Origin: Jaminaea rosea
Lineage: Eukaryota > Basidiomycota > Exobasidiomycetes > Microstromatales
Direction: 5' to 3'
Assembly (NCBI RefSeq): GCF_003144245.1
Contig: NW_020289975.1
Location: 2,313,496 to 2,377,495 of the forward strand
Length of the DNA stretch: 64,000 bases
Below, one piece after another: positions 46,607-62,957 of the stretch (position 1 is the stretch's first letter; every line of letters starts with the position of its first letter). The notes beneath the pieces were generated by a model that was not told where the DNA came from, made no database searches, and worked only from the letters and a program-made list of their open reading frames with translations. The position numbers and the translations under genes were made by a program.

Positions 46607-48274
46607 TCAGAAGGGATACGCTCGTTTAGCAGCCAGGATCTCCTCGGCGCTGCCGGTAAAGATACCAGAGGCGACCTGCTCCTCGTGGGCAGCGTCCAGG
46701 TACGGCAGGCAGACGTCTCTGAAGCGCCTAACTCCCTTGTACCACTGAACGTCCTCTGGCCAACTTCGCATGGCACTGGCAAGGCGACCGGGCACACCGG
46801 GCTCCTTGGCCATGGTCGGGATCGGGGTCAAATGCGTACGAATAGTAAAGAGTACGGCTCCAGACTTGGGCAGCTTGCGCAGTGTCTGCCGCTCGGACCG
46901 CATCGCGATTTCTTCCGGGCGTGTTGCTGCGGGCGGAGCCTGGCGCTCGTAATGGATGCCGTCCTCAGGCTTGACGACACTGCGCTTGACGGTGTGGTCA
47001 AAGAGCGCCTCTGGACCATTGGAGCTGTGGGACCAAGAGAGCTCGACAGGATCGTGCAAAGCTCCTTGTCCTCGCTTGCCCCTCAGAGACAGAGCCGCGG
47101 CATCTTCTGCACCGACTTTTGTTGGATGCAGCGTGCCACGGTGAAACTCGTCGAGAAGGGCAAGAGGGTCTGTGACCTCAGGGCTAAAGACTTGGAAGAA
47201 GTACTAGTGGGCGGGCAAAGGTGCGTCAGCGCTGTCGGCTCGCAGCTTCGTGGGGTCGCCTCGACACGGTGGTACCCACATTGTTGCGCTCGGCCAGCGT
47301 CGTTGGCTTAAGCTTTGTAAACCAGCGATCCATTGGCCCCATGAGACGCTCCTCATACTGCGCAACTTTGCCAGTGAGGTGGATCTGCCGCAGAGTTAGA
47401 CCTAAAGAACGGAATGACGTGGGGTTAGTCTGCATCGCCGCTGGCTTCTCTTGCGCACGCTGCTCACCGATCTTCTCATCAAGGCGCCAGAACCCCGCTG
47501 CACAGATGCTCCCGCCGATAAAACGATATTGCCCCTCGGCTTCGCCCTCGAGGTCGGGTAGGAGCAGGGCGAGATCATCGGGCACGAGTTCTCCCGCCAC
47601 CCGCCAGGCGTTGTCGCCGCCGAGTTCTTCCTCGTACAGCTTCCATTCCTTGGCCGGCAGACCTAGTTGAGGATGGGCGAGGCGTCGAACGCCGGTGATC
47701 TGGGCGCCGTCGTCGGGCGAAAGGTGAGAGCCTTCTGGTACCGTCACAAAGAATTGCGGGTACTTTTGAGCTAGGAATGAGGCAATTGCTCGTGCGGCTT
47801 CCAGCGAGGCTGCCTCGTGCCGTTTGAAGGAGGGCCCTCCGACGATCTGGTAGCTCGAGCTACCATACAGCTCGTGTCTAGCCTCGCGAATGCGTATGTA
47901 GGACGGGTAGGAGGCGAAGAGACTCAGCCAGTCGTGCGTCGCAATGGTCCGTAGGCCCATGGTGACCTGTAACAAAGACGTGTCAGGCGGCACTCGCGAA
48001 ACGAACAGCCGACGGAGAGACTCGCCTGATAGCTCGACCATCTAAATGGCCTATACATCGCCTCCTTCTCAGCGGTCAAGTCGAACGAGTCGGGAACCGG
48101 ATCCGTGCGAAACGCTTTGTACTCGTGCGCGCCCTCGCCGCCGCCGCCGTCGCGACCTCGCGCAGCCGTCTTCTCGTCGAGGGCAACGGCATCTTGCTTA
48201 AGGCAAAGGTAGAGGTGTCGGAGGCCGATGATGCCTGACAGCGCGGCAAGGATGATGATCCAGTAGCTATCCAT
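46607..48274 (-). CDS. HODM-like (DUF3445, heme-dependent oxidative N-demethylase alpha-type) protein 1
   Basis: Four exons, 48274-48026, 47966-47468, 47401-47280 and 47203-46607, give 488 residues. Intron 1 is 59 nt with a GC donor (CAG|GCGAGT). Residues 4-22 (YWIIILAALSGIIGLRH) form a membrane anchor. The remainder fits the fungal DUF3445/HODM family: YRPFRWSSYQVTMGLR across the first splice, VPDDLALLLP, GSICAAGFWRLDEKIG, LKPTTLAERNN, RSERQTLRKLPKSGAVLFTI and PGRLASAMRSW. The bacterial family member oxidatively demethylates dimethylamine using heme; the fungal substrate is unknown. It is paralogous to the next gene upstream, 348 bp away on the same strand. Confidence 0.85.
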
Positions 48275-48622
48275 TCTGCCAGTAAGGAGTGAAGTTCAAC
48301 ACAGAGGTTGCGAGCGCAACAAGATCGTCGTCCTCTTCAGATCAAGCGCAACGATGTCGTCCTCTTCAATCAAAGACACTCCAATGCGTGGTCACGCGAT
48401 AAGGGAGACTGGACCGGCGCGATAACGGAGGCCCGTGCGAGTCAGGCACCTGGCCCGTGCGACGCAGTGCAGCCAGACCCAGGAGCTAAAGCAGGGTCAC
48501 ACTTGGATTCATAATTGAGGCTAAATGAGCGCGAGCGGAGAATAACAAGCGGGGGCGAGATACGACATCTGGCGCTCGGGTGCCAAGGGAAGTCCTCCCA
48601 TCAGAGCGTCGCCGTCCGACGC
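48275..48622. other. Intergenic between the two HODM-like genes
   Basis: A 348-bp gap that must include the promoter of HODM-like gene 1. No frame or motif of note is visible. Confidence 0.5.
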
Positions 48623-49967
48623 TCAGGTGTCAAGAGCAGCTTCATCATTGAAGCGTCGGAATGACGCAGGGTCAGCCGCGTCTTCCTCCGTGATGACCCC
48701 GCTTTCCAACTGCTTGCGATGAAGCGACTCGAGATACGGCAAGACCGAATTCTGATAGGACGGGGCGTCTTTGTACTTGAGAAAACGGTCGGCGGAGTCC
48801 TGGTGTATTTTGAGCAGCAATTGAGGTAGCAGCGGGCTGTGCTCGAGCGCCGACAAGGGGCGACGCATAGGATGAACGCCAAAGAAGATTACGCCAGTGC
48901 GAGGCATCTTGACAAACGTCTGGTGGTCGAGGCGCAAGAGTAGCTTAGAGGCGTCTTCGGTCTGCGCTGCTTCAGGGGCGCGGCCTTGAAGATGGCAAGG
49001 TCGCACGGGCTGAGCGCGAGCGCCGTTCTTGCCGACATGTAGGGGAAGAGGTCCTGCGAGTGGCGTCCAGAAGAGATCGTCGTCGGGCTCGGTGAAGCCC
49101 CAGCTCGTCCGCTCAAAGGGCTTATCTGCGGCCATCCGCGTAAAGGATCGCTCGACGCTCTTGAGCAGCTTCTCGTTGAAATCGGGCACGGGCGAGTGGG
49201 TATCGTGTAGCGAGAGGCCAATCTTGTCGGAGAGGAGATAGAAGCCCGGGAAAGCTACCAAGCCGCCAGCGCAAATCCAAGAGCCGTCTTGAAGAGGGGC
49301 AGCGATGAGGAAATCGTCCTGTACGAGACCGGAGACGACTCGCAATGCCGATGTACCGGATTTGAGCTGACCGTTCGGGTTGTACAGATCCAAGCGCTCC
49401 TCCGTGACGAGATTGTGAATGATTCTTCCTGGTTCAATCCACTGAAAGAGGCGCGGGTATCGCGTGACGAGCCATTGCGAAAGCAGCTCAAGCAGCTCGC
49501 CGCATGCTTCATCGACGCACGGCAGAGTGTCGCACACGACAGCTCCCTGCGTCTCCACGAGCTGTTTCTTGTAAGCCAAATCGGCGCGGTAGAAGTGGTC
49601 CGGCTCGATCCAATGCTCTGGCAGCATTGGCTGATGGGCCATCGTCTGAAAGTAGGGGTAGCGAATCGTCTTGTTTGCAAAGATGTGGTCGCGCGCCGAG
49701 TGGCCGTCCAGCGTCTCCGGCGTCAGCGTCGTGTCAGGTCGAGGAGGCGGCATTCGAGGTTGCTCTGCTGCAGCGGTATAATACGAGGTCAGAGAGGGCT
49801 TTGTGAAGATGAGGGGGCTGGAACGCACCTTTGGACAAGCCTTCTTTGTCTGCACTGCTTGCGCCAGTCCCCTTGCCTCCCTGGGCGAGATACCATCGCG
49901 ATATGGCATATGCAGCGTAGCAGACCAGGGCGGTCGCGGCCAGGAATACATCGAGTTGATACGACAT
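48623..49967 (-). CDS. HODM-like (DUF3445) protein 2
   Basis: Two exons, 49967-49829 and 49767-48623, with a 61-nt intron in phase 1, give 427 residues. Residues about 7-24 (VFLAATALVCYAAYAIS) are an N-terminal membrane anchor. The body shares the order of motifs of HODM-like protein 1: ELLELLSQWLVTRYPRLF, SGLVQDDFLIAAP, GGLVAFPGFYLLSDKIGLSL, RLDHQTFVKMPRTGVIFFG, and a C-terminal helix with ESLHRKQLESGVIT. It is more divergent than protein 1: the RSERQTLR box of the family is RLDHQTFV here. Function is inferred from family only. It is divergent from the 2OG oxygenase across a 622-bp promoter region. Confidence 0.82.
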
Positions 49968-50589
49968 GTTGCTCAAAGGCGATGTTGTCGTTGATGAGGA
50001 GAGGTGAAAAGGAAGTTGCGACAACGACACGTCCCCTTCGGTCGTGGAGAAAGCCCCGCACCATTTTAAGCGCACAGGGTCATGGGCCCCGGATGTCGCG
50101 ACGCTCCGTGTGCGGATTGGACCCAGGAAGCGAGCGCCCTGGAACGTCACGCCGCGTCGCAATTAGCGCTCTCCCACACGACAACAACTGATCGACGCTC
50201 GAGATAGTCAGCAATCCAGTCGCCTTCGTCGCGCTGCCTTTCCAGAATGCTTATGATTTAGCTCGTTCATCTTGTTTCATGCCGCACGAATCGCGCGTGA
50301 CCATGTCATGCAGGGGCTCAGCATTGCGGGGAAGGTCATGAGATCTCGAGCCGCTTGGCGTATCCCACCGTGGCAATCTCTAGCCTATCTCTTGCCAGTC
50401 CAGACAAGGATATAAAACAACGATAGAGCGACGAGTCGACGATACGCTATCGTCAAGTCGCTATCTAGCATACCTTGCTCGACACCTTGCGCCGCCAAGA
50501 TAACGAGCCACGTCTTTGACTACCTCATACGCCACACATCTCCTCTCCCTCACACGACAACACCTCCCAGACTACCAGTCACACACATT
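49968..50589. promoter_or_regulatory. Divergent promoter of HODM-like gene 2 and the 2OG oxygenase
   Basis: A 622-bp region between divergent start codons. A clear TATAAAA lies at 50411-50417, 173 bp before the oxygenase ATG. This is one of the few obvious TATA boxes in the window and suggests regulated rather than constitutive expression. Confidence 0.6.
50411..50417 (+). promoter_or_regulatory. TATA box of the 2OG oxygenase gene
   Basis: Perfect TATAAAA upstream of the start codon at 50590. The distance allows a leader of roughly 100-140 nt. Confidence 0.55.
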
Positions 50590-51868
50590 ATGCAAACTAT
50601 CGAAGAGCCTCACACTACCGCCGCTGGACATCATGACGTCGCCTTTGACCCTGCGCGTCACCTTGCCTTTGAGCCTCCCAAGGAGCGACTGACCATGTCT
50701 CAGCTTGGTCTGGGCGACACGCCGGCGCCAGTGAGTACCTACGATACTGCGACGCGTGACGCCGCCTGACGCTCACGACTCTGCTTCATCCTTTAGTCTG
50801 GCGTTGCAGTCACCTCTCCATTCTCTCTGGCCTCGCCGACTGGAGTTCGTGAACTTCGTGCCTCGCTTTTGCAGCCAAAGTGCATCGCCAAGCACCTTGT
50901 CTGGAACGATCTAAACGGTCCTCACGCTCAGCTTCGCGGAATGGCGCCTCACACCGCCAAGTTCATCTACGACTTCTGGACGCACCCCGAGACGATGCGC
51001 GCCCTCTGCGAGGCTGCCAATGAGGAATTGGTTCCGTTCTACGACTACGAGATCGGTTCCACTAACGTGAGTGATACGCTGAGCTCTACAGTCGTTTCGC
51101 CACGCGTCAAGCTAACCAGCAGTCCTTCACGATCGCCAGTTCCAAGTCCCTGCCGGCAAGGAGCGAGGCCAGTACATCAAGTCCCTCTCCGCGGACCCCT
51201 TCGCGAACGCTGGACGCGCTAGCGCGGGCAATGCACAGTCGTCTGCCTCATCTGAGGACACCGACGATGCTCCCCCTGTGGTCGGTTTCCACCGTGACGC
51301 GTATCCATGGGTCTGCGTGCTCATGCTGTCCGACGTCTCGGGCATGAAGGGCGGGGAGACGGCTCTGCGAATGGGGTCGGGCGAACTCTTCAAGGCTCGA
51401 GGACCGGCCCTTGGGTCCGCTGTCATGATGCAAGGCGGCTACATCACGCACGCCGCACTGCCAGCTCAGGCAGTACCCGGTGCTAGCAGCGAACGCATCA
51501 CCATGGTTACGGCCTTCCGCAAGCGCGACGCCTTTGGATGGAAGGACATCTCAAACTTGGGCAACATTCGCACGGCCTCCAACTGGAACGAGATCTACGC
51601 ACAGTGGGTCGTCTCCCGACTCGAGGGTATCCAAGAGAAGGCCGCCGGCTTCCAGCGAGTCCTTGAGGCGAGGCGACGCTACGTTCAGCAGCGTTACAAC
51701 GACGGATTTTTGCAGGCGCCCATCATCACTCATGACGAGGTGCTGCGCTTCAAGGAGGAGCTCGATGAACACCTCCAGCGCGCCCTCGATGAGATGAAGC
51801 CCTACGGAGACCCCACTGATCTCTGGACGCCGCGCTTGCCCGGTGTTAACAGTAACGCCAGCCTCTAA
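50590..51868 (+). CDS. 2-oxoglutarate/Fe(II)-dependent oxygenase of a fungal family
   Basis: Three exons, 50590-50730, 50797-51066 and 51140-51868, all phase 0, with 66- and 73-nt introns, give 379 residues. The double-stranded beta-helix core holds the metal triad: His188 and Asp190 in FHRDAYPW and His241 in GGYITHAALP, plus Arg256 (ERITMVTAFR) for 2-oxoglutarate. Between them lie VCVLMLSDVSGMKGGETALR and RGPALGSAVMMQGG, which recur in a fungal 2OG-oxygenase family. A C-terminal helical part follows. Such enzymes hydroxylate or demethylate small molecules; the substrate is unknown. Exon 3 was placed by the only acceptor that keeps the family frame. Confidence 0.85.
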
Positions 51869-52008
51869 GCCACTCATCACCGGCGGCTCACTCGTGCGCT
51901 TGACGCGCCCATCATCAGCTCTATACCTTCTCTGTCAATGTTTCTTTCTCAATCTCTTGACGCTATTCGAATTCTATCATGCTTGTGACAATATCTCGCT
52001 GGACGCGC

Positions 52009-53758
52009 CTACAGATTCTCTTCTGGGGGACCGCGGTAGACCTTCCTCGCGTGAACAGCGTACCATATACCTGCAAGCCCGCAAAGCCCCACAAGCACCA
52101 CTGACGCATAGTTCATCGCAACACTCGTGGTGGGCAGCGAGGTTGGCATGCAGAAGAGGACGAGCTCGAATAGGATCCACGCAAGGCTGACGACGTTGTT
52201 GACCCAGCCCAGAATGGTTCCGGGGCACCTGAAGCGAGCCTTGGAGACCTGAGCCCGTCCGTTGGCCATGGACAAGACAATGGGCACACCGTAGCTGAGA
52301 GACAGGGCAACGACGCCCACGGACACAAAGGCTGTGAACGCGCTGGTGCTCCCTAGATTGATGAGGCCCAAGAGCATTTGCACAACCGTCAGAACGACCA
52401 ATGACTCGATCGGGACTCCAAAGTGCGGGTGGATGCGCGACAGCATCGACCCCATTGGCGTCCCAGCATCTCGCGCAAATGCCCAAAGACACCGCGATGC
52501 CGCTACGGTGATGCTCAGCGAGCAAAAGAGCGTGATGACGAGGACGAGGAAGGTCAGCGCGAGGCCTCCACCAGGCGAGTCCATGACGGTGGCGTAGATG
52601 TAGGGCAGCGCTTGCGAGCCGGCATTGGCAACAATGTCGGCGGGTGAGGGCATTGTGAAGCAAATGGGCATCACGAAGAAGAGGCCAGCAATGCCGCCGA
52701 CAGGAATGCACAGAGCAATGGCCTGAGGCAGCTTCACCGCCGCGTCTCGGCATTCTTCTGCCATGCTCGTGATCATGCCAATTCCTGAGAACGTGTACGC
52801 GGCCTAACGTACGTGGTGTGGCGCGGGTGAGCTGGCGCCATGGTGAATCTCATGCACATGCGTACTCACGGGCAGCAGTCCGATGAAAAAGGTGAAGCCT
52901 CCCCAGCCCGCCAGCGACTTGTCGTAGTTGCCCAAAGCTTGCGATATTGAGCTTCTGCCAACGCCCGCCTTTACAGAGAGGGCGATGAGCGTGACGACTA
53001 TGGTCACTGCTGTAAAAGCTGCGCTGGCGGTATCGACGTACGGCAGGATCTTATTGGCAAAGACGCACAAGACCAGGCTGAAGAGACACACGGCGTAGAA
53101 GATTAACAGCAGCTGCCATGCTTCTGCCGTAAAGTCGGCATCGTTAAGGGTGATGCAGGCGCTGATGAGCGACGCGAACCCGAAGTTGACCGAAAGCGTG
53201 ATTGTGAGGTTGCCGATCAGCCAGATCCATCCTGTCTGGCCGCAAGCAGCATAGAGAGAGAGCGGTGGAGTGAGCGGTGGAGTGAAACGTGAGCGTGCGG
53301 GGTCATCGCGCGGCGGGGTCACGCGCCTCGTCGGACTGACCGGTGGCATAAGCAGCTAGCGCACGGTGTTCCTTGGCCAACTGAAAGCTCCAATAGTGTG
53401 GTCCAGCGGACGTCGGCCAACGCGAGGCCAGTTCCGCAAGAGAGATGGCCACGCACTCGTTGAGGATGCATACAACGATCCAGCCCACGAAGATGGAGAG
53501 CTGGCCTCCGCCGTAGACAGCAGAGAGGATGGTGCTGCCTTGGCCATATGGGATAGCAGCGATCGCAAGACTCTGAAAGAGGAGGGTGAAAAGACTGCGA
53601 TTGCGCCGAAGATTGTGCTCAGGCTCATAGCCAAGCTGATGATGCAGGACGACGTTGTCGGTGTCTGAAGCGTCTTCCGGGGCGCGGTACGATGTCAAAC
53701 TGGCGCGAGGCTTGTCCTCGACGCTGCTAGAGGGTGTCTTTTCCTTGAAGTCGGGCAT
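52009..53758 (-). CDS. Amino-acid/choline-type permease (APC superfamily)
   Basis: Three exons, 53758-53341, 53231-52870 and 52803-52009, with 109- and 66-nt introns, give 524 residues. About twelve hydrophobic segments are visible. Family blocks include LFQSLAIAAIPYGQGSTIL, SLAELASRWPTSAGPHYW, ATGWIWLIGNLTITLSVNFG across the first splice, AAYTFSGIGMITSMAEECRD and CLWAFARDAGTPMGSML. This is the amino acid/choline transporter branch (Hnm1/Uga4/GabA-like), which imports choline, GABA, polyamine or similar amines at the plasma membrane. The substrate cannot be told from sequence. It is convergent with the 2OG oxygenase, 140 bp apart. Confidence 0.9.
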
Positions 53759-54511
53759 GATGTGGTGCGCATAACGCGGCTGCGACTCTGACAATGGTCG
53801 CAACCGGCGATGCTTTTGAATGATGGTGCCCCAGACGCCTTATCGCGTGGCCTCGGCAAAGGAGCCGCGCTTATCTCGACCCGTCGCACTATGCGCCCGC
53901 GCTAGCCGTCCCGGTGTCCGATTCAGGAGCTCACGAGTTCCCGCATATCAATCGAGATAAGTGTGAAGACGGGACCAAGACGTCTCTTTCCTTTAGTAAA
54001 GCCTTTGCGGGATGACTAACCGTTTCGCGCCACGCGCTATCGACGCGAGTGTCCGCCGCAGTCTCCCGCGACCCAGCAAAAGCCGCGCCCATTGATGGGG
54101 ATCATCATGAGGATCATCGTCATCGATCCCTTCGTGGGCAAGCATTCCCCAATGACTGGAAATACTCAGCGCAGCGCCATCGTTTGCGTCGCAGTATGCG
54201 TTTGCGACCAAGCTCCCCTCTAGACAACGCATCTCACTCAGGGCCAGCGAGCAGACACGCGTAGAGAAAGGATCAATTGCTTTCAGACATGCTGAGAAAA
54301 TCTGAGCAAGGGGAAAGCTCTGCGCATAAGCATGGCTATGGCATGAATGGCCGCGGTGCCAGGACGAGAGTTCTGCCCTTGACGATGGGCCGGCGTTGCA
54401 GCGTTCTACGCAAAGATGATACCGCCTTGGAAACGCGCCGGCGAAGATGAGAAGACAGGATGCCGCTGACGGTCAGCGAGCGAGAAAGGGCAATATGACC
54501 AGCTCGCCCTC
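53759..54511. other. Intergenic, permease upstream region
   Basis: About 750 bp without a credible gene. The permease promoter lies at the left end. The longest frame (minus, near 53993-54232) codes 79 residues with no recognisable feature. Confidence 0.5.
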
Positions 54512-55754: not shown

Positions 55755-57794
55755 TCAATGACGCTGCAGCGAGGGCCCATCGACAGCGGCACGCTCGACA
55801 ACGACACTCACTTCAGAGAGCTCGCCGGACACTAGGGCAGCTCGATGGACAGGCTCATCGTCGCGTTCCTCAGGCTCAAAGGCTCCTTCGATGGCGCGCT
55901 GTGGCAGACAATGTAAGGGAACTGTCAGACAATGCAGTCTCGGCACCGCGCTCACGCTCTCGCGCCCACTCACAGCAGTGGCATCGCTCTCGTCGTCGGC
56001 CTGTCCCCTGACGGCGGGAGGCCACTTGCACTGGCAAGAAGCGGTCACGCCAGGCTGGTAGCAGATCCACTGGCACCCGCGGGGATCAAGGCCGACGAAT
56101 CGCCCAGCGACGGACGCGTCTTCGCCGAGCTTTGTGGGCACCGTAAAGCCACGCTCCTCAGCCTTGCTGGACTGTTCGGTGGTGAGCTATGCGGTCATGA
56201 AACGAGTATTGCGGTCAGCGAGAGTCTGTCCGTTGCTTCGCTCACGGCGCGCTCGCCACCACGACGCCGTGTCCACTCACGCCATAGCGGGCAAGGGCAG
56301 CCTTTTGCTTCTCAAGTCCTCTAGCGCCGGGGATCTGCTTGCATTGGCAGAGCCCTTTAGCATTGGAATCTCCGCACATTGCATGGCACGCGTGACTCAC
56401 GTGGGCAACCTCGTCCTTGTCGAAAGCATCCCCACGGCCAGCAGCATTGACACTCTCCTTGACGGCGCGCTCACTTGTCTCGAGCAACTCTTCAAGATTT
56501 CGCTGTGCGGAAACGGGCAGGTGAGGCAGAAAGGTCCTCGATCAGGTGACGTCGCAATGCTCGCGCCTCGTACGGCGCTCGCACCGACTTACAGCAAGGT
56601 TCTGCAGATCCTCGTCTCGCTTGGCACCGTCTCGTCGAACGGGAGGGTCGGCGCAGTAGCATTTCCGGCCGATGCCTTTGCCCATGCACTTGAGCCTCTT
56701 GCACGAATTCTTAGGGGGCGTCTCATCGCGAGCGTGCCAGAGAGAGCTGGCCGAGACGCCGGACGCTTGTTCACCCCGCGCCACGCCCTCATCTCGAGAC
56801 ATGGTCGCCGTGATGGTGTGGGGAGGTGGGTCGAGGCAGAAGCATGTCGGCTTGCGGCCGTCGGAGTCGCATTTTAGGTTGTCGCATCGTTTTTCTAAGA
56901 GAGCGGGTAGAAGGTCCCTCGCCCTAATCAGGGGCTTCGTGACGTCGCGCGCAGAAGGAGGCTTGTGAGGAAGAGGGCCAGGACCGGGGCCAGGGCGAGG
57001 CTGCATGTACGACCTGGGGCAGGAGCAGTGGATCCCTTTGCTGGCGGTGACACACGTCGGCTTTGGGCAGGCCAAGGCGTCAGGCTTGCTGCGAACAATC
57101 TGCGCAGGACGACGACGTGGTCCATGATCAGCTGGGGCCGGCTCACTCGCTCTCGTATCGACTCACGGCGGCGTCGGCTGAAGCGCACGTGCAAGAGGTC
57201 CATCCCGTCTTGCTCTTGGAGCATGAAGGCTTCGCGCAGGACTTGACGTCGATGTTGTCGCGTTCGAAGGGCATGAAGACGTCGAAGCTCTCCTCGATGG
57301 CACGCTGCGAATGAGTGGTCGCACAACTTTAGCGGTGCTCGGGCTTGCAGATTGACCTACTGGCTCACGATGTCGACGTCACCGGGGTCCTGGCAGCCAC
57401 ACTTGATGCCAGTGGGTATCGGCGTGCATACGTGCTTCTTGCAAGGCTTGGTCGGCTTGACGGGCTTGGCTGGAATCGGTTTGGTATGGTTGATGACGAG
57501 CTCGCGCACGAAGAAGGCTGCAAGGACGGGAGGGTCATCGCGCGGGGCGAGATGGTTGCCAACGCTGAGCATCCCTCGCTCGAGAGCAGGAGGGATCTGC
57601 GGGATGTCAATGCCATGAGGCACCGTCGTCTGGGTGTTCTGACAAGGGGAAACAGGCGCAGATTAGGGCAGCCAGTCACGGCGCGAGGCCTGGCGAGCAA
57701 CACTCACTAGGTCAGGGGTAGGCAGAGCATTACCCTTGCCGATGAGGAGAGAGACGGCCGCGAGGCCAGCGAGTGCAGCGAATGTAGAGCGCAT
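55755..57794 (-). CDS. Secreted protein with seven tandem four-cysteine modules
   Basis: Seven exons, 57794-57708, 57638-57369, 57304-57167, 57099-56593, 56502-56281, 56186-55974 and 55898-55755, all in phase 0, give about 526 residues. A signal peptide (AALAGLAAVSLLIG) opens it. Seven modules of C-x(3-4)-C-x(8-9)-C-x-C follow, for example CKKHVCTPIPTGIKCGC, CPKPTCVTASKGIHCSC, CKRLKCMGKGIGRKCYC and CQWICYQPGVTASCQC, often followed by DP or PP. Exons 3 and 7 both begin RAIE. Linkers hold dibasic sites. I do not recognise the family; an extracellular or effector-like role is only inference. A possible last 48-nt intron would shorten the C-terminus. Confidence 0.75.
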
Positions 57795-59533: not shown

Positions 59534-60600
59534 ATGTTCGACACCAGGTGAGTCCGCCAGATACCCGCCTGAAGACATCGCGCCATTCCCTCCTCTGACT
59601 CATCCTTCTCACTTGCCCCGCACACAGCCTCCTCTTCGCCAACAAGATCCTCTTTGTCACTCTCATTCTCGCCGTAGCATCATGGCTCGTAGCCTTCATT
59701 GGTCAAGCAGCAGCTGAGGCGCATGACACGCTGCACCTGGGTACAGTCTGGTTCGGCATCTTCGTTCAACTCTTCCTCATTCTCGGCGTCGTAGCCACCT
59801 TGGCTACCGACTCCATCGGGCTCGTCCGCCTACAGGTATCTGCATGGACCATCGTTGCCCTCGTCTTTGCGGTACAGGGCATCAATTTGGGCATCTACGA
59901 AGATGTTGGAAGCTACAGGGCAATGGCTGCGGGCTACTTTGTCCTAACCATCGTACTGGTGCTCTGGCTCTTCTTCTTTACCGCAGAGGAAGGTTCTCCC
60001 ATCTTCAACTTCTTCTACTCCGTCGGCGGCGGCTTCCCGATGAGCAGCAGCGGCCGTCGTCAAGGCGGTGGAGGCATGGGCGGCGCAGGGTCGAGCGCGG
60101 CATCTAGGAGTCAGATGAGGATGGCCAGCGGTGGAGTTGGGTCAGGCGTTGGCAATGGCTATGCAAATGGCCTCGGCGGCGGTGCTGGCGGCTACCAGCA
60201 GGCATATGGCCATAGCCCATCGACGGCTGATGTCACCTCGGGCGCAGAGATGGGCAAGCCGTACGGTACTACCATGGGTGCTGCGGGATCAGAGCTCGGC
60301 GGACACAGCCTCAACGACCATCGCGGCATGGGTGGCGGCGTGAGCTCGCCCAAGGTTGGCGGCCCTGCCGGTACAGTGGACGGTCACTCGACGACTGGCG
60401 GTGGTGACCCTGTGCCTGGCTACGGGTACAAGGCGAGGGCCCTCTACGCCTATCAGGCCAATGCGGATGACCCGACGGAGATTTCATTTACCAAGGGCGA
60501 GATCCTCGACATCGTGGACAACTCGGGCAAGTGGTGGCAAGCGAGGAAGGCCAGCGGCGAGACTGGTATCGTTCCTAGCAACTATATGCAGCTGCTCTGA
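59534..60600 (+). CDS. SHO1: Osmosensor adaptor Sho1
   Basis: Two exons, 59534-59547 and 59628-60600, joined in phase 2 across an 80-nt intron, give 328 residues. The first exon is only 14 nt. Four transmembrane helices lie within about residues 10-130 ([79 protein letters not shown]). A Gly/Ser-rich linker precedes a C-terminal SH3 domain: [37 protein letters not shown] and [11 protein letters not shown]. Sho1 sits in the plasma membrane and links osmotic and filamentation signals to the HOG and related MAPK pathways through Pbs2 and Ste11. Confidence 0.96.
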
Positions 60601-61428: not shown

Positions 61429-62957
61429 ATGGTCGCACCTCCCGCTGCAGCCACTCTGCGGACGATGCCGAGGGGAACGGCTTCTCTCGCAGCATTGACC
61501 AGACGCGGTGCTGGCATCGCTCCATCTATAGCGAGGTCTACACCCTCAGCATTACCATCATCGTCGCAGCGCTCCCTACACTCAACAGCTTTGCGCTCCT
61601 CCGACCCTTACCCGAAGGACCCTCGACAGCGCTTCACACCTCCTTCGCCCTACGTCCCGCTAGAAGCGCGACCGCTGAACATGCCATTCATCCTGCCGGA
61701 CGGTTCGCCTGCTCGAGTAGTCGAGAACGACTCACACGACATCCTGTCCGTCTATGCTGCCATTGGCGGCGGATCGAAAGACGAAATCATCGCGAGCTTT
61801 GAGAGGCAAAAGGGTCACAAGGCTCGGGTGAGCTTGCATGGCGTGGTGCAGGATTCGCGTGCCCAGAGCGAGGACATATGGAAGCTGCGTGTGGGACCGA
61901 AGGCGGGAGGAGATGAGGTCAGGGCAGCTTGGATCGCTGTGTATGCCTGTGAGTATCCGCCGGTACGAGGTGGGCTTGATGTGTCCCCGATACCTGAGTA
62001 TTGACTTGCCCTCATGCTACTCGTCCCGTAGTCTGGCTGCGCCGAGACCCTTACGAGCGTTTGCCGATCTCCATCGTCGACTCTCCCCGTCTTCGCAGCT
62101 ACATGATCGCAACGGGTCTCGGCTTCCAACCACCCGACAGCAGCACAGAGGGCCACCTCCTTCTAGACCGCAGCGCCTTCTATCAAGGAGCGGGAGCCCC
62201 TCTCGACCTCTCTTTCCTCCGCACTCCCGAGCCGCAAGGTCATCAAGACTTCGGCGTCCCTCTAGCCTCTCCCTCGTTCCCCTCCATCCTCTCCTTCACC
62301 TCCAGCCAGTCCCCAGCATACTGCACTACTCACCCTCTTCGTCCACCGAAGCCCCCTGTTGGATCACTCCTTTATGCGCGATACCAACCTAGCGTCTCAA
62401 GCCTGTTCCAGCTTTACCACCTAAATGCGGAGGACCCCGCTCACTTCGAGGCGTACGCCCGCTGGCAGAACTCGGATCGTGTCAACGTTGGGTGGAAGGA
62501 GAGAGGGTCGGATGAGCATCACCTCAAAACGTTGAAGGGGGTAGAGGAAGACCCGCACAAGATGAGCTTCATGTTCGCCTGGGATGGAAAGGTAGCGGGA
62601 TACGCTGAGGCATCCTGGAACATGGAAGACCCAATGGCTCCCTTCGTCAGGAGCGGCGGTGGCAACTACATTGGGCCTTGGGACCAGGGAGTTCACATGC
62701 TAACTGGAGAAGAGTGGGCAAGAGGTCGCCACCGATTCGTAGCTACCACTGTCAACTTGAGGCACTTCTGCTTCCTCAGAGAGCCGCGAACAGACGTTGT
62801 AGTGAGCGAACCGCGCTACGATCTAGGGATTGTCAGCCTCCATCGAGCGTACTCGCCTGTAGAGAATATGGGCGAGGCCGAGCTCCCACACAAACGCACC
62901 AATTGGCTCCGTCAGCATAAGGAGAGGTTCTACAAGGAGGCCGGCTTCTGGTGCTAA
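61429..62957 (+). CDS. Siderophore-type (SidF/IucB-like) acyltransferase with a mitochondrial-like N-terminus
   Basis: Two exons, 61429-61948 and 62032-62957, with an 83-nt intron in phase 1, give 481 residues. The C-terminal half is the GNAT-like Acetyltransf_8 domain of N5-hydroxyornithine or N6-hydroxylysine acyltransferases: SLFQLYHLN, FEAYARWQNSDRVNVGWKE, WDGKVAGYAEASWN, EEWARGRHRFVATT, REPRTDVVVSEPR and AELPHKRTNWLRQHKERFY. These enzymes make the hydroxamate groups of siderophores. The N-terminus (TLRTMPRGTASLAALTRR, later RSLHSTAL) looks like a mitochondrial presequence. The C-terminus GFWC has no SKL-type peroxisomal signal, unlike SidF. No siderophore synthetase or ornithine oxygenase is in the window. 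Confidence 0.82.

Follow-up and report, generated by a model that had tools for sequence, protein, structure and literature searches.

We examined a 64,000-nucleotide window of the genome of Jaminaea rosea, a member of Microstromatales in Exobasidiomycetes (NW_020289975.1, positions 2,313,496 to 2,377,495), which lies on a contig of 3,091,552 bases in an assembly of 16.6 Mb. Four spliced genes, designated here A(-), B(-), C(+) and D(-), occupy positions 46607-53758 of the window, an interval bounded exactly by the A stop codon (46607) and the D start codon (53758). Genes A (46607..48274, minus strand, 510 aa) and B (48623..49967, minus strand, 427 aa) encode HODM-alpha-like proteins of an A-type and a B-type clade, respectively, C (50590..51868, plus strand, 379 aa) encodes a 2-oxoglutarate (2OG)/Fe(II) oxygenase, and D (52009..53758, minus strand, 524 aa) encodes an APC permease. 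We tentatively favor, at slightly less than an even chance, the view that they make up a gene cluster for nitrogen scavenging, with two membrane-anchored heme N-demethylases at its core.

The gene models were built by splicing. Gene A has three exons (48274..48026, 47966..47280 and 47203..46607) parted by a GC-AG intron of 59 nt (47967-48025) and a GT-AG intron of 76 nt; B has two (49967..49829 and 49767..48623), and C (50590..50730, 50797..51066 and 51140..51868) and D (53758..53341, 53231..52870 and 52803..52009) have three each. B and C diverge across 622 bp, and C and D converge with 140 bp between them. By reading, the exon joins of A and C match those of homologs at the same places, while the joins of D come from the DNA alone. 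The public protein for B, "hypothetical protein BDZ90DRAFT_229882, partial" (P0001; 426 aa), is 100% identical over the alignment and one Ala shorter than our splice model. A public protein of full identity was found neither for A (best 54% among the 120 of 649 matches listed) nor for C (best 50%, all 95 matches listed), so both models rest on DNA and homologs; the lack of a record for A may stem from its GC-AG first intron. All coordinates checked agree with the order, strands and identities of the four genes proposed in a first-pass annotation made from the sequence alone.

Profile searches placed both A (E 3.6e-55, 187.7 bits) and B (E 3.8e-64, 217.1 bits) in PF11927 (HODM_asu-like; cut-off 25), and a PDB sequence search with A matched 5lte (E 7.9e-8). 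When the J. rosea genome was searched with the PF11927 profile, A and B alone were matched, with no third paralog, and these sole members found adjoin each other. An alignment of 25 rows, including the printed parts of 5lte, A and B, contains seven invariant columns, a core held in common with the bacterial enzyme, and the structure model of B has the PAS fold of HODM. That A and/or B are instead membrane-bound PAS sensors (of heme, gas or amines) and not enzymes seems to us very improbable. Each protein begins with a hydrophobic segment: residues 6-24 of A (48203..48259, minus strand), the best 19-residue window, with a KD19 maximum of 1.95 at residue 6, and residues 3-29 of the B model (49881..49961, minus strand), a predicted helix with a KD19 of 1.73. 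Taken with the family core and the modeled fold of B, these segments support the earlier description of A and B as putatively membrane-anchored HODM paralogs. By contrast, the Pseudomonas HODM alpha protein of locus L048, by reading, has no such segment.

To place the two proteins, we built a tree from 58 rows chosen from 185 A and B homologs, plus J. rosea A, and rooted it at the midpoint. A and B fell into two clades split at a support of 100, each grouping with its own Ustilaginomycotina orthologs; a recent tandem duplication is therefore rejected, and A and B are, on this sequence evidence, old paralogs lying side by side. The A-type clade comprises Ascomycota, Basidiomycota and rotifers, and the B-type clade comprises only Basidiomycota among the tree rows, a distribution that does not imply absence elsewhere, as scoring in the B protein search was limited to the 7,998 best candidates. 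Of the 12 A-type rows aligned, 10, with a range from rotifer to basidiomycetes, have YPF, YPY or YPL at the C-terminus, and the two Ceraceosorus rows have FPFA; B-type rows in the alignment do not carry an ending of the YPF/YPY/YPL type. Three stretches of viral contigs searched with B fit a pattern, and no relative was found among them. Public names of HODM-like proteins can mislead: P0012, P0039 and several of P0144-P0183 are called "Cytochrome P450", "actin-related protein 10" or "alpha-1,2-mannosyltransferase". HRQ protein is another public name for the PF11927 family, and a Scheffersomyces stipitis protein presumably bears it as well. Record P0175 combines PF11927 with PF03901, perhaps through a merged gene model.

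Gene C itself gave no Pfam or NCBIfam match, and PDB sequence searches with C or with the alignment of its homologs returned nothing useful. Several public homologs are, however, named Fe2OG dioxygenase, and an HxD...H...R motif is invariant in 70 aligned homologs (H190, D192, H243 and R254 in the numbering of homolog P0186). C shows the same letters by reading, which would supply the iron site and the 2OG-binding Arg. The structure model of P0186, not of C itself, has the double-stranded beta-helix, in a form like that of BesD/HalB and lysyl hydroxylases, and its neighbors in structure comparison include AsqJ as well as halogenases/hydroxylases of free amino acids; identity is 12-17% in the rows of that comparison for BesD/HalB-type 2OG enzymes and lysyl hydroxylases. 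Homolog names, motif and homolog fold together bear out the assignment of C as a 2OG/Fe(II) oxygenase at the level of sequence and model. With C as query, the J. rosea genome returned only C, and no second copy was found. In BesD-type 2OG halogenases, Gly or Ala replaces the iron-binding Asp. This Asp is present in C and invariant in the 70 homologs, so that a BesD-type halogenase site was rejected and the site speaks for hydroxylation.

The fold neighbors of C bear on a second explanation, in which the four genes are a small biosynthetic or tailoring cluster whose heme and 2OG oxygenases modify a nitrogen-containing natural product, D exporting the product or importing a precursor. Free-amino-acid halogenases/hydroxylases and AsqJ among these neighbors would suit it, as would the HODM-domain gene of Sphaerulina musiva that, following an inversion, is reported next to a non-ribosomal peptide synthetase/polyketide synthase cluster (PMC12778737). 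Against this, no backbone synthase appeared in the nine neighboring frames scanned, which cover part of the flanks, the Asp of the HxD motif favors hydroxylation over halogenation, and orthologs of A and B are widespread in Basidiomycota, those of A also beyond. We consider a tailoring cluster improbable.

Gene D belongs to the APC superfamily (AA_permease_2, PF13520; E 1.4e-40, 140 bits, cut-off 27). Its best NCBIfam match, over the full length, is TIGR00907, which we take to be the amino acid/choline transporter branch of APC, but its score falls under the cut-off of that family (324.6 vs 598.3 bits). A PDB sequence search with D gave nothing at E 0.001, and a TIGR00907 search of the genome found D, two strong places and one weak place.

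Since a role in nitrogen use predicts sites for AreA/Nit2-type GATA factors, which read HGATAR, we counted this motif upstream of the genes. Six sites (50202, 50385, 50421, 50447, 50461 and 50498) lie in the 622 bp shared by the divergent B and C (49968..50589), two in the 348 bp between the start of A and the stop of B (48275..48622), and four in the 600 bp upstream of D (53759..54358). These 12 sites in 1,570 bp compare with an expectation of 1.69, derived from 20 control stretches each 10 kb long, and among the 11 other letter permutations of HGATAR the largest count was 7 vs 3.26 expected. Among 1,234 overlapping windows matched for GC, not one had as many sites as the six of the B/C promoter, and the count for D was reached in 1.6% of 2,243 windows; that for A was reached in 5.2% of 2,491, so that the region upstream of A alone is unremarkable. 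Equal density was found in 0/57, 2/57 and 2/57 segments upstream of open reading frames for B/C, A and D, respectively. The gene bodies showed no enrichment. As comparators, the upstream region of an amine oxidase gene holds two sites in 471 bp, those of SFA1- and FGH1-like genes one each in 600 bp, and those of the two other TIGR00907 genes two and none in 600 bp.

Whether the genes keep company elsewhere was judged from locus tags and contig sizes in protein listings (120 of 649 A matches, all 65 B and all 95 C). The C listing is incomplete, J. rosea's own A and C also being missing from the public protein listings. In Bondarzewia mesenterica, A and B lie two tags apart (EW146_g507 and g509; contig size 138908 for both), and in Ceraceosorus bombacis the tags of B and C are consecutive (CBOM_03270 and CBOM_03271; contig size 1514893 for both). 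A and B share a contig size in Exobasidium rhododendri at 893 tags' distance; they are apart in C. bombacis, C. guamensis, Violaceomyces palustris, Testicularia cyperi, Rhodotorula glutinis, Ramaria rubella and Phenoliferia sp. Uapishka_3. For Rhodotorula graminis, JCM3775 has them apart by tag, and the WP1 contigs are of one size with unreadable spacing. B and C are apart in V. palustris and Rhodosporidiobolus poonsookiae, and some assemblies consist of short scaffolds, in which a verdict of "apart" is weak. Assuming 10,000 genes, a given pair would fall within two genes in about 4 in 10,000 cases, or ~0.008 times in 19 comparisons; two near pairs are clearly above this, and the partial linkage of A, B and C pairs in these listings therefore looks real. 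The conserved linkage that the first-pass annotation had proposed to look for was thus recovered for these two pairs, and A, B and C together were not seen in any other genome compared.

These comparisons bear most directly on the strongest competing explanation, that the four are neighbors and not a pathway: A and B would be old, separate enzymes, with C and D beside them by chance, each with its own role elsewhere in metabolism. We regard this as quite possible, at about one chance in three. Most genomes compared speak for it, links being apart or unproven for A-B in 9/10, for B-C in 2/3 and for A-C in 6/6 other species (C. bombacis, V. palustris, Rhodosporidiobolus ruineniae, Penicillium herquei, Exophiala xenobiotica LTS15 and Arachnomyces sp. 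PD_36), as do the absence of most species listed for B from the incomplete C list and the identity of D at family level only. It is harder to reconcile with two distant genomes each keeping a different pair of A, B and C near, with the adjacency of the genome's two PF11927 genes, and with GATA-rich sequence in all three upstream regions.

The rest of the genome provides a setting for an amine pathway. We found one copper amine oxidase place, SFA1-like and FGH1-like genes (exon-by-exon matches, each stretch under the model cut-off), three PF00667 places, one of them within a frame that at 672 aa has the size of a P450 reductase, and 15 stretches matching cytochrome P450s (P450s). Amine oxidase, SFA1- and FGH1-like genes suit the use of amine nitrogen, as does the GATA enrichment, as far as sequence can indicate. 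A Rieske-type choline mono-oxygenase (PF00848) gave no match in a search in which 4/14 controls gave a signal, making entry of choline by this enzyme less likely, and it was set aside as a route. The DmmA-like family (PF22289) had no match in J. rosea and two in the Pseudomonas genome of locus L048, used as control, although introns could hide so short a domain, and a Pseudomonas Fer2-type reductase query, run without a positive control, matched nothing.

In the cluster that we favor, D would import an amine or an N-methyl amino acid. A and B would act as HODM-alpha-type PAS-heme mono-oxygenases held by their N-terminal helix, most likely at the endoplasmic reticulum (ER), and would hydroxylate the carbon of an N-methyl (or other N-alkyl) group with release of formaldehyde, converting tertiary to secondary to primary amine stepwise. 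Electrons may be supplied by P450 reductase or the b5 system, as general ER reductases, in place of the reductase and folate subunits of HODM itself. The formaldehyde would enter the glutathione route (SFA1/FGH1), and the methylamine or amino acid product would pass to the amine oxidase or to general metabolism. C may hydroxylate or demethylate this substrate or one akin to it, amino-acid-like in kind, and GATA factors of the nitrogen-control type would switch the genes on. A more specific version assigns one oxygenase to each methyl group. D would import an amine or amino acid that is trimethylated (quaternary), and C would act on the quaternary nitrogen as Rieske enzymes (PF00848, not matched in the genome) do elsewhere. 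ER-anchored B and A would remove the remaining two methyl groups, which would make A- and B-type HODM the missing genes of the fungal microsomal tertiary- and secondary-amine mono-oxygenases. We hold this version to be unlikely.

Several points weigh against a demethylase cluster. The evidence covers anatomy, from which heme, ER placement, electron source, substrate, step order, regulation and what C and D do are inferred. Linkage beyond J. rosea is sparse, with A-B close in 1/10 other species having both among the matches listed, B-C in 1/3 and A-C in 0/6, and D scores below its family cut-off. The hydrophobic N-terminus was not found in 28/64 B homologs and 34/118 A homologs as annotated, many of them short models, and a DUF3445 protein of Aspergillus niger, An08g07010, is labeled "Mito", not ER, in a table of PMC6320622. 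A very long branch parts B-type from A-type, with 2.29 + 1.11 changes per column on the two sides of the midpoint root, and the wide occurrence of A-type proteins in fungi, and also in rotifers, could point to another substrate or a housekeeping role. SFA1, FGH1 and P450 reductase are general genes, the control promoters were crude and based on open reading frames, and iron- and light-responsive GATA factors also read GATA sites. Overall, the amine pathway with HODM steps at a membrane, as first proposed, gains from the HODM core, the hydrophobic N-termini, the partial linkage, the GATA enrichment and the amine oxidase, SFA1- and FGH1-like genes, and loses in that the four-gene unit as a whole was not recovered. 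We consider the pathway plausible, better supported for A, B and C than could have been known from the window and unproven for D.

Two known systems invite comparison. In the Pseudomonas HODM locus (L048, 3372-10196), a DmmA-like gene and a Fer2 reductase gene come before the alpha gene, and GCV_T, two further frames and an FMO-like gene come after it, the two frames between GCV_T and the FMO-like gene being folate-type by reading only; of the DmmA-like, Fer2, GCV_T and FMO-like genes that accompany this alpha gene of the HODM/dimethylamine mono-oxygenase type (DmmABCD in Ruegeria), none adjoins A or B. In yeasts, demethylation of di- and trimethylamine is ER-located and sensitive to carbon monoxide (CO) and cyanide (Green and Large 1983, 1984; Fattakhova, cited in PMC5816127). 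Linder (PMC5816127) reports that S. stipitis was unaffected when two candidate P450 genes were deleted, names a non-CYP heme enzyme or redundant P450s as possibilities, and states that no candidate gene had been found. The first-pass annotation knew of no such fungal pathway, a statement that does not hold for the activity: ER-bound, CO-sensitive di-/trimethylamine mono-oxygenase activity is known in yeasts, although, as of PMC5816127, it had no gene assigned to it. A membrane-anchored HODM would agree with both the ER location and the heme-type inhibition, but the yeast enzymes have been described only as activities, and in budding yeasts, whereas J. rosea is a basidiomycete. We found no function assigned to fungal PF11927 proteins in listings and passages of the open-licence PMC literature. 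The Sphaerulina (PMC12778737) and A. niger (PMC6320622) mentions are annotation or expression rows, and DUF3445 is named in a figure legend on gene gains in PMC10406608.

Among the neighboring frames scanned, a PF00150 match upholds the GH5 flank gene proposed earlier. On D's side of the cluster, a Cys-rich frame (56542-57162, minus strand) contains three C..C...C.C units set apart from each other and matched nothing in Pfam. The frame at 59599-60600 (plus strand) combines hydrophobic stretches with a C-terminal SH3 domain (PF00018), and we take it to resemble the osmosensor Sho1. Near the right window edge, 61998-62957 (plus strand) matches Acetyltransf_8 (PF13523; E 2.1e-25), presumably a siderophore-type N-acyltransferase family.

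A and B are thus candidate genes for an orphan methylated-amine demethylation activity of yeast membranes, for which no gene is identified in the literature searched. Membrane-anchored HODM-type heme proteins would fit what PMC5816127 describes, namely heme-type inhibitors, independence from the deleted P450s and, if the anchor is an ER one, location. If true, this would show how a bacterial enzyme of several subunits was turned into one membrane protein that draws on general reductases. It would also assign a function to a large family whose members are now publicly named HRQ protein, mannosyltransferase or even actin-related protein.
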